The translations under genes were made by a program, and so were the position numbers. A stretch of DNA of 64,000 bases from Lindgomyces ingoldianus (lineage: Eukaryota; Ascomycota; Dothideomycetes; Pleosporales; Lindgomycetaceae): the NCBI RefSeq assembly GCF_010093535.1, contig NW_022985223.1, forward strand, positions 1 to 64,000. Direction: 5' to 3'. Position 1 is the stretch's first letter, and each line of letters opens with the position of its first letter. A model generated the notes under the pieces. That model was not told the DNA's origin. It was given only the letters and a program-made list of their open reading frames with translations, and did no database searches. Positions 10,839 to 24,989 of the stretch are shown here, in pieces.

Positions 10839-10843
10839 AAAAA
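10839..10843 (-). terminator. Likely RNA polymerase III terminator of tRNA-Leu
   Basis: On the minus strand a run of five T lies 37 bases beyond the tRNA 3' end. A second run of five T follows at 10829-10833. Runs of four or more T end RNA polymerase III transcripts, and these are the first two after the gene. Confidence 0.6.
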
Positions 10844-10891
10844 GGTAATCCTGAAACCCAAGCTAGGCTTGGACGAATGTTGATGAGAGTG

Positions 10892-10902
10892 GGACTCGAA
10901 CC
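10892..10902 (-). promoter_or_regulatory. Internal promoter box B of tRNA-Leu
   Basis: GGTTCGAGTCC matches the GGTTCGANTCC consensus bound by TFIIIC. Confidence 0.85.
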
Positions 10903-10949
10903 CACGCCACTTTCGTGACCAGGAATTAATGCCAAGGAGTAACCTTAAC

Positions 10950-10998
10950 CTAGAAGAAATTAGAATTTTTGATTAGATCACTGGATCGGACGAATTAC
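10950..10998 (-). other. 49-base GT-AG insert inside the tRNA gene
   Basis: Read on the minus strand the insert begins GTAATT and ends TTCTTCTAG. It has a pyrimidine-rich 3' part and a CTAAT element (about 10972) that matches the fungal branch-point pattern CTRAY. It sits between CCAG and GTTAAGG, so AGGT is present at both junctions. Removing exactly this piece restores a perfect CCAGG/CCTGG anticodon stem. Its ends look like those of a spliceosomal intron or introner, which are not expected in RNA polymerase III genes. A short element with a four-base target duplication is the main alternative. Confidence 0.75.
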
Positions 10999-11010
10999 CT
11001 GGCGCCATAA

Positions 11011-11022
11011 CCAACTCGGCCA
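11011..11022 (-). promoter_or_regulatory. Internal promoter box A of tRNA-Leu
   Basis: TGGCCGAGTTGG matches the TRGCNNAGTNGG consensus exactly. Confidence 0.85.
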
Positions 11023-11029
11023 TCTCACC

Positions 11030-12117
11030 GTTGGATTGTTGAATAAATTGCCAAATAATTAGTATATATAAGCAAGAATATAATAAAATTTCAACATTGT
11101 CTAAGCCAAATACAATCTGGCGACATCAACGCAAGTGTGGCGGCCAGTGCTAGTGGGGGCTAGTTAAAATGTTAACACTAATCACTAATATTAAACGCCG
11201 GTGGGCGTGGGTACTGGGACAATGAGTTGTTGAGACCCGACCGTCTTGGCATCACCGGATGAACTTTCAAAGGCATCTCGCTTCCTCCATTCCCTCGTCT
11301 ACATTATTATGAGACATTACCTTTTACGATCTTAATGACTTAGCTGAATGGCACTTTGTCGTTCCCCCAATGTTTGGCTGTCCACTGATGCACCAATAAT
11401 CCTCCGGGCGATCGGGAATGCGCGCGAAAAGCCTGAGAAGACCAGCACAATGCTACCGAGGTTTGCAGACATTCCTACGTGAGACATCAATGATTGGCAT
11501 TTAAATATATCCTTTAGAAGTTTGTGTAGTACAAGTTCTACCCCTAACAAAACCTTGATGTTGTAGCTGAGAAAGGTTCCTTCCAGTTATGACCCCAGGC
11601 TCTATATGTATTGCCAACGAAACACCATTGCGCCAACAACTTGTGTAGCACACATACAACTCTCCTTTTCCGAATTACTACGGCCTCTATTGTTTCATAG
11701 GCTTTTTTAACCATGGTAACCGCTCAACCATCCATACTGAGACCTGTGTATATCTACCTGCAGTCATGCTTCTTTTCACTGATAAAGTTAACCAAAAAGT
11801 GAATGCCGGATCGAAAACCTCGGCGGCCATGGGAAGGAGGTCGAGCGGCGATTATGCACCCACTGCATCCCTGGTCGACGAGGTAGACGACCGGCGGCTT
11901 TAGACACCCTCACAGGATAATTGGCAGGAGATGGTGTGATTAAAGGAGAAGAAGAAGCACCTGCTCAAAGACACAAAGATCAGAGTTTGTCTATCTGGTG
12001 GGATTTTAAAGAGGGAACATCTGCCCTGACACCCTCCACCCCTTGAGATGGGGAAAAGGCTTGTGCTCTTGGCCAGTCCTCTCGAATCCAAAAATGAAGT
12101 CTCGAAGCTAGGTTATA
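11030..12117. other. Gene-free stretch
   Basis: AT-rich 5' flank of the tRNA gene, then mixed sequence down to the 3' end of the serine hydrolase gene. No supported gene or structured RNA was seen. A purine-rich block (ggagaagaagaag) lies near 11944-11956. Confidence 0.45.
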
Positions 12118-18452: not shown

Positions 18453-21400
18453 ATGGACAAATCCACTCAAGTCCTGCTCTTTGGAGATCAGACTAGCCCA
18501 TTCGCAGCTTCCCTTAAGCGTCTCCTCTCGATCAAGCACAACGGCCTCCTGATTACTTTCTTTGAGAGAGTCTATTACGCCCTGAGAGTCGAAATCAACC
18601 GCCTTCCCATCGCCTTTCAGGACGAGTTTCCTCGGTTTACTTCTCTGCTCGATCTCTTGGCTCGTTGCAGCGAGTCAAAAACCAGGAACCCGGCCCTCGA
18701 GAGCGCCTTCCACACCCTCAATCAACTCGCTTGCTTCATCAGGTAAGTTGCCACATCTCCCCTCCGCTCACTCCAACATACTAACGACCAATTATAGCCA
18801 CTATGGCCAGAGCACGCTCAAGTATCCTTCCCCCGCCGAGAGCCACATTGTTGGTGTTTGCACTGGTCTTCTTTCTTCTGCCGCCATCAGCACTTCTCAG
18901 ACATGGGCTGAACTCTTCCCAGCGGCCATTGAAGCTGTGCTGATCGCCTTCCGCACTGGACTGAGGACTACCCAGGTTCGAAACGATATCGAGAAACCCA
19001 CTGCGGGCTCCCAATCTTGGTCTATGATCGTTCCCCTGCCTGCCCAGCGCGTTTCGATGGCTCTGGATGCATTCGAGGAGGATCAAGGTATCCCCCATGC
19101 ATCCCGACCGTATATCAGCTACATCACTCCGAACAACGTCACAATTAGCGGCCCTCCGTCCGTCCTCGAGACTCTCGTCAAGACATCACCTTTTTCTGAG
19201 TCCAAAGGTGCCAAGGTCTCTGTGTTCGCTCCGTATCACACTTCCCACCTCTACTCAGAGGCTGATATCGACGCGATAATGGCTACCACCTCTCAGGAGA
19301 TCGTAAATTCCTACACACCTAAAATCCCCGTCTTCTCCGATGTTACTGGCCAGTTGATCACCGCTTCCACGTATGGAGAGCTTCTGCGGATTTGTCTTCG
19401 TGAGATTTTGATGGAGCCTATCCGTTGGGATAAACTGCTTGAGGGTACCCCCGCTTCCTTGAAGGAGGCCGGCGTCTCTCAAGCCACTATCATCCCATTT
19501 ATCGCCAACGGTTCGCAGCATTTAGCAGCTGCCCTTTCCCAGGCAGGCTTTGCTAGTGTCAAAATCGACGATCAGAATACCAACATCAACGCTTCTCCAC
19601 ATGCCCGCCCACAGCAATCCAAGATTGCTATTGTTGGATACTCTGGTCGCTTCCCGGACTCTGCTAACACCGAGAAGTTCTGGGAAATTCTTCACCAAGG
19701 ACGTGATGTACACCGCGAGATTCCCAAGGACCGATTCGACGTAGATGCTCACTTTGACCCCACAGGCAAGAAGAAGAACACATCTCGTATCCGGCACGGT
19801 TGCTTCATTGAAGAGCCTGGCCTTTTCGATGCCCGCTTCTTCAATATGTCACCCCGAGAAGCCGCAAACGCCGATCCCGGCCAGCGTCTTGCCATTACCA
19901 CTGCTTATGAGGCGTTCGAACTCGCAGGTTTCGTTCCAAACCGAACCGGTAGGTCAAAACTTCTGATATCAGTCCTGAAAGCTAACATTCTACAGCGTCT
20001 TCTCAGCGCGACCGCGTTGGCATCTTTTACGGCATGACCAGTGACGATTGGCGTGAGGTGAACAGCGGGCAAAATGTCGACACCTATTTCATCCCTGGTG
20101 GCAACCGGGCCTTTACGCCTGGACGTATCAACTACCACTTTAAGTTCAGCGGTCCTTCATTCAGTGTTGATACTGCCTGCTCCTCTAGCTTTGCTGCTAT
20201 TCACACTGCCTGCAACTCGCTCTGGAAGGGAGACTGCGACACTGCCATCGCCGGCGGCACAAACGTCATGACTAATCCAGATAACTTTGCCGGCTTGGAT
20301 CGTGGACACTTCCTCTCTACCACTGGCAACTGCAACACATTTGATGATGGAGCGAACGGGTATTGCCGAGCTGATGCTGTTGGCACTATCATCATGAAGA
20401 GATTGGAAGACGCCGAGGCTGACTGCGATCCTATCTACGGCGTCATCCTTGGGGCATACACGAATCACAGCGCTGAGGCTGAGAGTATGACTAGACCTCA
20501 CGTAGGCGCGCAGGCGGCGATCTTCGGGCACATGTTGAACGCGGCTAACGTCAACCCCCTTGATGTCAGCTACATCGAAATGCACGGCACTGGAACTCAG
20601 GCTGGTGACGCTGTGGAGATGGGGTCAGTCCTTCAGGTGTTCGCACCGACCGAGGGAGGTCGTCCTACCCAGTCACTCCACCTTGGCTCAGCTAAGGCAA
20701 ATATTGGACATGCTGAATCGGCCTCTGGTGTTGCCTCGCTCATAAAAGTCCTCATGATGATGAAGAAGAACGAAATACCACCCCATTGCGGAATCAAGAC
20801 TAAGATCAACCACAGCTTCCCTGATCTGGGAGCTCGCAATGTTCACATTGCACGCAAGCCGACGGAGTGGAAGCGACCTGACGGAGGAAAGCGTACGGTC
20901 TTCATGAACAATTTCAGTGCAGCTGGAGGCAACACTGCACTTCTCATGGAGGACGCTCCTATCGCCTACAGGACTGAAAGCAAAGACCCTCGATCCACGC
21001 ACATGGTTGCCGTCTCCGGACGATCCATCCTCTCCTTGAAGAGGAACCTCGAGTCCTTCGCAAAATTCCTCGAACAGAATCAGGACATAGCCCTCCCTGC
21101 TCTCTCTTACACTACCACTGCGCGTCGTATGCACCACAACCACCGCATCGTGGCCACTGGTGCAAACATTGAGACTGTCATCAAGAAGTTGAAGGATGCC
21201 AGCCAGAGGCAAGACCTCAAGCCTGTCCCAGCCAGAACCCCTGGGGTGGCCTTCGCCTTTACTGGCCAAGGAGTCCTTCAATCGGGAATGGGCAAGCAGC
21301 TCTTCGAGAACTTCACCCAATACCGCAATGATATCCAGCGATTCGACCGCATTGGCCAAAGCCACGGCTTCCCTAGCATCCAGCCTCTGATTGACGGGTC

Positions 21401-24400
21401 CATCAACGATGTTGACAACCTCAGCCCGGTAGTTGCTATGCTCGGAACTACATGCATGCAGATGGCCCTCACTCGCCTTTGGGCTTCCTTTGGCGTTATT
21501 CCTAGTGCGGTCATCGGCCACAGCCTTGGAGAATATGCGGCCCTCAATGCTGCAGGTGTCTTGTCTGCGAGCGACACAATCTACCTGACCGGTAAGCGAG
21601 CTCAGCTTCTCATCGCGCGTTGCTCCATTGGCACCCACGCTATGCTGGCAGTTCAAACTTCCCTGGCTCAGGTTGGCACTCATCTTGTTGGCAAGCCCTG
21701 TGAAGTTGCTTGCATCAACGGCCCCAACGCTCTGGTACTCAGCGGTGCAAATGAATCCATCGACGCACTTGCCGAGGAGCTTACCGCGGCCAAATTCAAG
21801 TCAACGAAGCTCAAGGTTCCATATGCTTTCCACTCTGCACAAGTTGAGACAATCTTGTCCGACTTCGAGGCGGTTGCTGAGAAGATCCGATTCGCTACTC
21901 CTGCCGTCCCCTTCATATCCCCACTGCTGGGAGAGGTCATCGAAGGTGAGGGCATCCTCAACCACCTCTATCTCAGCCGTGCCTGCCGCGAGACCGTCGA
22001 CTTCGTGTCTGGCCTGAACGCAGCCCTCGATAGCAAGACCATCACCGAGAAGACTCTTTGGGTCGAGCTTGGATCTCACCCTATCTGTTCGGGCATGATC
22101 AAAGCTGTTGTTGGCAGTGACACTGTTGCTCTTCCGTCCCTCCAAAAGAACAAAGACTCCTTCGAGGTACTTGCCGGCAGTCTGTCTTCTTTGCACCTTG
22201 CTGGCATCGATGTCAACTGGAACGAGTACCACCGCGACTTCAAAAGCTCTCACCGTGTTCTCGAGCTTCCATCCTACAACTGGGACGCTAAGACCTACTG
22301 GATCCAGTACAACAACAACTTCTGCCTTACCAAGGGCGATGCGCCCGCTCCAGTTACTGCTGCTCTTCCTGCCCCACCTGTCCAGTCCAAACTGTCTACA
22401 TCCTCGGTTCAAAAGATGATTGAGGAGAAGCTTGAAGCGACCAGGCCTTCCATTCTTATGGAGTCGGATGTTCAGGAGCCGACTCTGGTCGCCGCTATTC
22501 AGGGCCATGCGGTCAACGGCACTCCTCTCTGCCCGTCCTCGCTTTACGCAGATATTGCTCTCACGCTTGGTGACTACCTCATCAACAACAGCAAGACTAA
22601 GCCGTCTGCTACTGGAATGGACGTCGCCGAGATGGTAGTCAAGAATCCGCTCATCGCTACAGGGCAGAAGCAACTCTTCCGTTCTTCGGCTATCGCCGAC
22701 TGGTCTGCCAAGGAGATTACTGTACATATTTACAGCGTCAACGAGCAAGGCAAGATGACCACTGACCATGCTAACTGCAAGGTTAAGCTGGGTGATGTCG
22801 ATGCTTGGATGGCTGATTGGAGACGCAACTCCTACCTGATCAGGTCTCGCATTGATGCCTTGCACAGTGGTGTCGACGATGGCGCTACCAATCTGATCAA
22901 GCGCGGCATGGCCTACAAGCTCTTCGGCGCCATCGTGAACTACGAGCAGCAGTACAAGGGCATGGAGGAGGTTGTCATGAACAGCGATGATCTAGAGACG
23001 TCTACTCGCGTCAAGTTCCAGAAGGACCCAACTAGTGGCAAGTACTACCTCGCTCCCTACTGGATTGACAGTCTCGGCCAGGTCACCGGCTTCACCATGA
23101 ACGCAAATGACAACACCGATTCCAAGACTCAAGTCTTTGTCAACCATGGCTGGGATTCGATGCGGGTCGCAACCAAGCTTTCTTCCGAGAAGACTTACCA
23201 AACATATGTTAAGATGCAGAACATCGGAGGGACGATGCATGCTGGTGATGTCTACATCTTCGACGGTGAGACGATTGTTGCCGTCTATGGAGGTGTCAAA
23301 GTAAGACCATATCCTCCGTTTTATTGTTGCCTGTTCTCTAACAGCTTGCAGTTTCAAGGTGTGCCGCGACGAATTCTCGATCACCTCCTTCCAGGTGCTG
23401 GCAAGGCTGCACCAAAGGCTACAGCACCTATTGCCAAGTCAGTTCCGGTCCCTGCTGCTGCTGTCTCTGCCAAACTCCAGGCAAAGCCTGCCAAGACTCT
23501 GGCTCCTCCTCCTCTTCCTGTTGCATCGAAACCATCTGGACCTAGTATTGCTGATAAGGCCCTCGATATCATCTGTGAAGAAGTTGGTGTCTCGCGATCT
23601 GACCTGATTCCAGCCGCCGCATTTGCTGACTTTGGCGTTGATTCTCTCCTTTCGCTGAATATCTCTGGCCGTCTTCGCGAGGAGCTTGAGCTTGACGTCG
23701 AAAGCGGGCTATTCAACGACTGCCCCACCGTCAAGGACTTCCTCGCTTTCCTCCCTAAGGGAAGCGACGCCCAAGATGTTGTGGTTGTCTCCGAAGTCAG
23801 CTCCTCATACGCCTCCACCCCCGCGAGTGAGTCCGAGGTCGGCGATAGCCAAAGCACGAACGGTAGCTCCATCCAAGGCGACGATAACGGAGTCATTGAC
23901 GCTATTCGCCGCATTCTCGCCGAGGAAATCGGTGTCAAAGAGGCCGAGATTACTGGCACCCTGGACCTTAGTGAGCTCGGGATGGACTCTCTGTTGTCTC
24001 TCAATGTTCTTGGCAGACTTCGAGAGGAGCTTACTCTGGACCTGCCTTCAGATCTGTTCGCTGCCAACAGCTGCCTCGACGCGGTCGAGGCCGCTCTAGG
24101 CATCAAGTCTACACCGGCCCCTGCAGCACCAGTCGACATTTCACCGCCTGAGACAGCTTCGGTCATCGTCAAGGAGCTCTCCATCCCTCTGAAGCCGGCC
24201 TCGACGCTTCCAAGAGCCTCTTCAATCCTCCTCCAGGGTTCTCCTAAATCTGCTACCAAGCAGCTCTTCCTTTTCCCTGACGGCTCCGGCTCTTCCACCT
24301 CGTACGCTCCCCTCCCCCGCATTGCCGCCGACGTCGCAGTCTACGGCTTGAACTGCCCATACATGAAGACCCCCCAGGACATGAAGTGCGGACTTGCTGA

Positions 24401-24989
24401 CCTGACGGCTCCCTACCTCGATGAGATCCGCCGCCGTCAGCCTCATGGACCGTACTTTTTGGGTGGCTGGAGCGCAGGCGGCATCTGCGCCTACGATGCC
24501 GCCCAGACCCTCGTCTGCGCTGGCGAGAAGGTCGAACGTTTGATTCTGCTCGATACTCCGAACCCGATCGGCCTTGAGAAGCTCCCGACCCGCCTCTACG
24601 ACTTCTTCAACAGCATCAACCTGTTCGGCCAAGGCGGCGCACCGCCACCATCCTGGCTTCTTCCTCATTTCCTTGCCTTCATCGACGCTCTTGACACATA
24701 CAAGGCGAGACCCTTCCAGGGCCAGGCGCCGCAGGTGCACATCATCTGGGCTGAAGATGGGGTGTGCAAGGACGGAAGCATCCCACCACCAGAGGAGAGG
24801 GCTGATGACCCTCGGGAGATGAAATGGCTGTTGAACAACAGGGTGGATCTTGGACCTAACGGATGGGACACACTTGTTGGCCGCCAGCAGGTGAAGATCA
24901 CGAGCATGAAGGATGCAAACCACTTCACGATGATGGAGGGTGTGAAGGCCAAGGAGCTGAGCCAGTTCATAGCAGGCGCCATGGCATGA
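18453..24989 (+). CDS. Non-reducing polyketide synthase (SAT-KS-AT-PT-ACP-ACP-TE)
   Basis: This iterative enzyme builds an aromatic polyketide from acetyl and malonyl units. Four exons (18453-18742, 18798-19948, 19996-23300, 23352-24989) give 2127 residues, the length of wA/PKS1-type pigment synthases. Starter-unit transacylase: GVCTG with Cys118. Ketosynthase from about 372: DTACSSS with Cys542. Acyltransferase: GHSLGEYAAL with Ser990. Product template: His1318 in QGHAVNG and Asp1505 in YWIDSLGQV. Two carrier domains: GVDSLLSL Ser1680 and GMDSLLSL Ser1795. Thioesterase/Claisen cyclase: GGWSAGG with Ser1956 and a His near 2106. The third intron is 51 bases with no stop, so it can be mistaken for coding sequence, but homologues lack the segment. 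The catalytic sites listed look intact. The architecture fits heptaketide YWA1-like or tetrahydroxynaphthalene-like products, and the EthD neighbour favours a naphthopyrone. Confidence 0.98.

Follow-up and report, generated by a model that had tools for sequence, protein, structure and literature searches.

Putative U2-type spliceosomal introns in many tRNA genes of the fungus Lindgomyces ingoldianus

Introduction

In the textbook account, splicing is divided between the spliceosome, which serves mRNA, and an endonuclease with a ligase, which serve tRNA. The nearest precedent for the feature described here is provided by the introns of U6 and U3 RNAs. Introns of the mRNA type are present in the U6 snRNA genes of fission yeast and, repeatedly, of other fungi, and GT-AG spliceosomal introns are present in fungal U3 snoRNA genes; according to the cited sections of this 2017 paper, U3 and U6 stand alone among small structured RNAs in being known for frequent interruption by introns (PMC5832005). 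Non-canonical tRNA introns, which lie outside position 37, are described for archaea, nucleomorphs and the red alga Cyanidioschyzon in the cited part of PMC4090602. For Dothideomycetes, the cited part of PMC4457414 describes introner-like elements, which are spliceosomal introns gained in number. In a search of the open-access literature on tRNA introns, no report of spliceosomal introns in tRNA genes was found.

The inserts presented here, found in tRNA genes of L. ingoldianus, a freshwater member of the Pleosporales, resemble the U6 introns in that a spliceosomal intron would lie inside a small structured RNA gene transcribed by RNA polymerase III (Pol III), the U6 side of this comparison being that of the cited sections (PMC5832005). 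They differ in that the hosts are 14 tRNA genes, interrupted at nine sites and in several cases also harbouring an ordinary tRNA intron, whereas the best U6 copies of L. ingoldianus look intronless. The likeness to U3 lies in GT-AG introns within a non-coding structured RNA, but the gene class is another. The canonical eukaryotic tRNA intron, located at 37/38 and removed by the endonuclease, is also represented here (10925-10942 in the gene described below), and the extra inserts differ from it in their positions, in their GT-AG ends and branch-like sites, and in their length of 48-86 nt. Like the archaeal, nucleomorph and Cyanidioschyzon introns they lie outside position 37, some of them at identical positions (PMC4090602, cited part); those introns are endonuclease substrates, whereas no such motif was found at the GT-AG cuts here. 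The introners of Dothideomycetes represent numerous gains of spliceosomal introns in fungi related to L. ingoldianus (PMC4457414, cited part), but no repeated family was seen among the present inserts.

Results

Structure of the tRNA-Leu(AAG) gene

The stretch of DNA analysed (the window) is 64,000 bases long and belongs to contig C62 (326,978 bases), in a genome of 68.4 Mb and 99 contigs. A tRNA on the minus strand, at 11029-10881, was the only RNA gene of the window at the Rfam gathering score (41.8 bits, against a gathering score of 29), and no tRNA was reported in the window by a plain ARAGORN scan. A preliminary description of this DNA had proposed a minus-strand tRNA-Leu with boxes A and B, a paired acceptor stem and an 18-base intron after position 37 whose CCTT pairs with the AAGG of the anticodon loop, and all of these were present in the sequence. 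The 49-base block said there to split the anticodon stem was exact in its borders, with GTAATT at the 5' end, TTCTTCTAG at the 3' end and a CTAAT motif. The features read from the sequence were as follows.

11063..11070, minus strand: upstream TATATATA, a possible TATA-like element of a Pol III gene (putative role)
10999..11029, minus strand: exon 1 of tRNA-Leu(AAG), positions 1-30; the same sequence is present in the second Leu(AAG) gene
11011..11022, minus strand: A box TGGCCGAGTTGG, intact
10950..10998, minus strand: 49-nt GT-AG insert at positions 30/31 in the anticodon stem, a predicted U2-type spliceosomal intron (GTAATT...CTAAT...TAG); the stem is restored on its removal
10950..10963, minus strand: from the branch-site-like CTAAT through the 3' splice site, the branch A lying 10 nt from the end
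10943..10949, minus strand: exon 2, 7 nt, positions 31-37, containing the anticodon AAG
10925..10942, minus strand: canonical 18-nt intron 3' of position 37, whose CCTT can pair with the anticodon-loop AAGG
10881..10924, minus strand: exon 3, positions 38-73, with the variable arm, T arm and acceptor strand
10892..10902, minus strand: B box GGTTCGAGTCC, intact (11/11)
10839..10843, minus strand: T5 run, a likely Pol III terminator (putative role)

The gene measured 100 nt after deletion of the 49-nt block and 82 nt after deletion of the 18-nt intron as well, and the joined gene paired at 7/7 positions in the acceptor stem and 5/5 in the T stem. When introns were allowed, ARAGORN called Leu(AAG) for the joined gene and placed an 18-nt intron in it; for the unspliced sequence its call was Leu(TAA), with an intron of 67 nt. 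The 18-nt intron lies one base 3' of the anticodon, as a canonical intron does, and the insert at 30/31 does not. Thus the preliminary claim that deletion of the block restores a tRNA was borne out, and its reading of the block as a spliceosome-type GT-AG element at an AG/GT site of a tRNA gene was supported by the sequence.

Two other leucine tRNA genes with inserts

The 171-nt window region had a single other match in the genome, at C8:354016-354159, which is a second Leu(AAG) gene. Compared with the window gene, its exons differed at 1 of 82 positions, while introns and flanks were diverged. Two inserts were present in the second gene: one of 48 nt in the T loop (GTGAGT...CAG), and one of 50 nt at the same anticodon-stem site as in the window gene, with a CTAAT motif and a CCCAG end, but starting with GG and not with GT. 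This GG may mean that the copy is dead, or that the base is an assembly error. No tRNA was found at this second locus by Rfam at the gathering score or by plain ARAGORN.

A D-arm pattern, searched with up to three mismatches, matched the two Leu(AAG) genes only, and the joined 82-nt tRNA matched, besides these, a gene for Leu(CAG) on C39, in which a 48-nt GT-AG insert was present in the T loop. No insert-free Leu(AAG) gene was found with the D-arm pattern or the joined tRNA, searches that unlike sequences could escape.

Interrupted tRNA genes across the genome

Beyond what had been described previously, the window gene proved not to be a lone oddity, as the same kind of block was found in 13 further tRNA genes. 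In all, 14 tRNA genes, spread over 14 contigs and specific for Leu, Ser, His, Thr, Lys, Glu, Ile, Gly and Asp, contained 16 extra inserts. These were placed in the D arm, anticodon stem, variable arm, T stem and T loop, at nine sites by our numbering, and several of the interrupted genes also had an ordinary tRNA intron. The total of recognised tRNA genes was 47 (34, plus 3, plus 10 more with inserts), of which 14 were interrupted; this is a partial census, in which two of the gene-finding routes favoured or disfavoured inserts.

The Rfam search of the genome gave at least 34 tRNA places above the cut-off (63 of 3779 candidates were scored), and the window gene was absent from this list. Extra GT-AG inserts were present in four of the 34, namely in a Ser(GCT) gene in the variable arm, and in two His(GTG) genes and one Thr(TGT) gene at 53/54. 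A pattern for the T-loop site, GTTCGAGTRAGT, had 12 matches compared with 19 for its reversed control; seven of the matches were not tRNA genes, and the other five were tRNA genes with an insert at 58/59, reading Lys(CTT), Glu(TTC), Ile(TAT), the C8 Leu(AAG) and the C39 Leu(CAG). The B-box pattern GGTTCGANTCC had 73 matches against 197 when reversed, and so was not itself enriched. Nineteen of the 73 coincided with loci already known. The remaining 54 were classified by visual inspection and by the pairing of their T stems and acceptors, a procedure that could miss a gene with an unusual T arm or one whose acceptor strand and B box are more than about 115 nt apart. Four new interrupted genes came from this set. 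The insert was in the D loop of Gly(TCC) and in the T stem of both Glu(TTC) and Asp(GTC), and Glu(CTC) had two inserts in its D arm. Three more new genes, which we read as Tyr(GTA), Glu(CTC) and Pro(CGG), were without extra inserts. Two gapped patterns gave seven matches, and the tRNA genes among these were already known. A covariance model made from seven normal tRNAs and applied to 32 loci placed several of the insert genes badly and was dropped.

The T-loop site 58/59 was shared by L045 (C39), L062 (C1), L067 (C14), L069 (C26) and L002 (C8). Three of these five genes were found with the pattern for that very site. As the inserts are not clearly alike, the shared site suggests either a favoured site or a constraint imposed by the B box.

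Four unsettled loci (L036, L038, L128 and L130) were left out of all counts. L128 (C33:263300-263830) was tRNA-like, with a GTCAGAT...ATCTGAC acceptor, A and B boxes and a T7 run downstream; about 180 nt of its interior perhaps contain several introns. L036 (C28:763662-763733) and L038 (C84:79465-79545) had A and B boxes at tRNA-like spacing and poor tRNA folds, and are possibly tRNA-derived repeats or decayed tRNA genes.

Splice signals and size of the inserts

GT-AG ends were found in 15 of the 16 inserts, including that of the window. Four genes were omitted from a second count, Lys, the C14 Glu(TTC) and Ile, which had been found by the 5'-splice-site pattern, and Leu(CAG), which also matched it; GT-AG ends were then present in 11 of 12 inserts, compared with 0.15 expected given border sliding, the T-loop insert of the C8 Leu(AAG) gene among these 12 also matching the pattern. 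A YTRAY motif with its A 9-12 nt before the end was present in 15/16 inserts, compared with 0.87 in shuffled sequences (a range chosen post hoc); with the A 5-20 nt before the end it was present in all 16, compared with 3.2. Fifteen of the inserts were 48-54 nt long and the remaining one was 86 nt. The 5' sites of the window insert (GTAATT) and the Gly insert (GTTCGT) were far from GTRAGT, and in the Asp insert the AG was 14 nt from the branch A. Eight ordinary anticodon-loop tRNA introns, examined as a control, had GT-AG ends in no case and the YTRAY motif in two.

Two mRNA introns of a polyketide synthase gene in the window were used as a yardstick. Both are located between exons matched by a Clohesyomyces protein, and their borders were set by us at GT-AG.

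18743..18797, plus strand: 55-nt mRNA intron of the polyketide synthase gene, with GTAAGT, and CTAAC 13 nt from the end
19949..19995, plus strand: 47-nt mRNA intron of the same gene, with GTAGGT, and CTAAC 10 nt from the end

The window insert (49 nt, CTAAT) resembled these two introns in size and signals, and the 15 inserts of 48-54 nt were close to them in length. The polyketide synthase encoded at 18453-24989 was 94% identical, over the 500 residues searched, to one of Clohesyomyces aquaticus, and several relatives are named conidial pigment synthases.

Restored tRNAs, promoters and terminators

Judged by structure, with ARAGORN, a tRNA was read in all 14 genes when the exons were joined, and in five of the 14 when unspliced. 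For the genes as cut and searched here, this means that nine unspliced genes were missed, and two of the other five were given a wrong anticodon. The joined Thr gene was read as Lys(TTT), the canonical intron being placed differently from our reading. The acceptor stem paired at 7/7 positions in all of the joined genes, and the T stem at 5/5 in 13 of them, the exception being Asp, where one mismatch remained after joining. In the interrupted Glu(CTC) gene (L129, C38:569640-570100), a 4-nt exon (CTAG) is enclosed by two GT-AG inserts, 49 and 52 nt long. The D stem of this gene (GTCT/GGAT) was restored only when both inserts were removed, and the same stem was found in another Glu gene.

An unbroken B-box core, GTTCGA or GTTCAA, was present in the DNA of each of the 14 genes. 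For the inserts at 58/59, the next conserved T of the B box is provided by the GT of the intron, and for those at 53/54 the final G of the intron precedes the TTCRA of the B box. The A box of the Glu(CTC) gene was partly interrupted. A run of at least five T was found within 50 nt downstream of every one of the 14 genes. The B-box cores and T runs fit genes that would still be transcribed by Pol III.

Other genes transcribed by Pol III were also searched. Among the matches listed, 5S genes were found at 19 places or more, dispersed, full length and with no insert, and U6 genes at eight places above the cut-off, of which the best ones were viewed and were full length with no large insert; interrupted copies of either could escape these searches. 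The feature is therefore not shared by all Pol III genes.

Dependence on insert removal

Histidine has one isoacceptor, GTG. A pattern for the His anticodon loop with its closing pairs, CGTTGTGGCCG, had 25 matches compared with 17 for the reversed control. Two of the 25 were the interrupted His genes, and no tRNA was recognised in the 121-base stretches around the other 23, a search that genes with other closing pairs would escape. Since both of the His genes and both of the Leu(AAG) genes found carry inserts, the cell probably needs the inserts to be removed.

Discussion

The feature is real and surprising: very probably, many tRNA genes of one fungus are interrupted by spliceosomal introns of the U2 type. 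It is highly probable, judging from the sequences, that the 49-base block of the window gene is such an intron in a Pol III tRNA gene, one of 16 intron-like blocks in 14 genes, and it is predicted to be removed by the spliceosome. The spliceosome is then likely to be needed to make working tRNAs in this organism. We infer transcription, spliceosomal removal and the order of events as follows. Pol III would transcribe the genes from the A and B boxes within them, most of which can still be read despite the inserts. Excision of the GT-AG intron by the nuclear spliceosome would come first, with U1 acting at the 5' splice site and U2 at the YTRAY branch motif, and only afterwards could the RNA fold into the tRNA body recognised by RNase P, RNase Z and the tRNA splicing endonuclease. 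Endonuclease and ligase would act last, on the ordinary intron 3' of position 37. Some of the transcripts would thus depend on two splicing machines that are unrelated, one after the other. Pol III transcripts are without a cap, which normally helps splicing, and this counts against removal by the spliceosome. Also on the opposing side are the GG start of one insert, the two 5' sites far from GTRAGT, the T-stem mismatch and branch distance of the Asp gene, the partly interrupted A box of Glu(CTC), the YTRAY motif in two of the eight control introns, and the 5S and U6 genes found full length.

The inserts might instead be introns of the tRNA endonuclease at non-canonical positions, cut at a bulge-helix-bulge. 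Archaeal introns, too, occur at 30/31 and 53/54, and nucleomorphs and a red alga have introns at non-canonical positions (PMC4090602, cited part). However, the four-pair central helix of such a motif was formed by none of the 16 inserts at the GT-AG cuts (two of four pairs in the window gene) and by one of 16 when equivalent shifted cuts were allowed, and no pairing total was remarkable compared with shuffled introns (lowest P 0.11). The endonuclease would require neither GT-AG ends nor branch sites, both of which are nearly universal in the inserts, and none of the eight ordinary anticodon-loop introns checked was GT-AG. Such cutting is very unlikely. Group I or II introns, which have a large catalytic core of hundreds of nt, were rejected, the inserts being 48-86 nt long and the only Rfam match of the window at the gathering score being the tRNA. 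An assembly artefact is extremely improbable, as the same signature recurs in 14 genes on 14 contigs, although base errors could account for the odd 5' site and for an A6 run at a splice junction of the Asp gene.

It had been proposed previously that the block either kills this copy or is removed in an unusual way. Unusual removal, as predicted from the sequence, is the part that was retained. The other part, extended to all of the interrupted genes, would make them dead copies hit by introns or intron-like elements, with normal genes supplying the tRNAs. Genes without extra inserts do exist for Ser(GCT), Lys(CTT), Asp and Glu, and for Gly(TCC) by our reading, and the one GG 5' site and the one T-stem mismatch would also suit decay. 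Against this, the stems of the joined genes are intact and their B-box cores and terminators are kept; in the window gene itself the stems, the terminator and both internal boxes are intact. Between the two Leu(AAG) genes a single exon position differs, despite the divergence of introns and flanks, neither of these genes was found without an insert, and no other His gene was recognised among the 25 His-loop matches. Death of the interrupted copies is thus quite unlikely. The preliminary description had also attributed the block to an introner, and recent introners (mobile introns) spreading through the tRNA genes would accord with the introner-like elements known in Dothideomycetes (PMC4457414, cited part) and with the site 58/59 common to five inserts. 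There is, however, no clear likeness among the inserts (of 120 pairs, 4 reached P<=0.01, compared with about 1.2 expected), and the 171-nt query containing the block had no match beyond its own locus and the second Leu(AAG) gene, so that no further copy of the window insert was found. A recent introner spread is therefore unlikely, while an old, decayed introner family could be the origin of the inserts. Introners concern the origin of the inserts and not their removal, and are no competitor to removal by the spliceosome.

The tRNAscan-SE 2.0 program seeks non-canonical introns in its archaeal search (PMC8450103, cited part), and genes of this kind would for this reason be easily overlooked. 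The tRNA gene counts obtained with standard tools may be wrong, because ARAGORN missed nine of the 14 unspliced genes and mislabelled the anticodon of two of the other five, for genes as cut and searched here.

Taken together, it is reasonably likely that the spliceosome is an essential tRNA-making machine in L. ingoldianus, through which all cytosolic His tRNA and all Leu(AAG) tRNA would pass before RNase P, RNase Z and the endonuclease; two genes would need two cuts, one of them joining a 4-nt exon. In the same reading, mRNA-type introns would have colonised tRNA genes at sites that spare the core of the Pol III promoter, standard finders would overlook such genes, and other fungi may match. 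The interrupted tRNA genes offer a clean test of what the spliceosome needs of a transcript in terms of cap, polymerase and exon length, the 4-nt exon included. If the inserts are spliced, Pol III products besides U6 would enter the spliceosome, one class of transcripts would depend on both of the eukaryotic splicing systems, and protein synthesis would rely, through its tRNAs, on splicing of the mRNA type.
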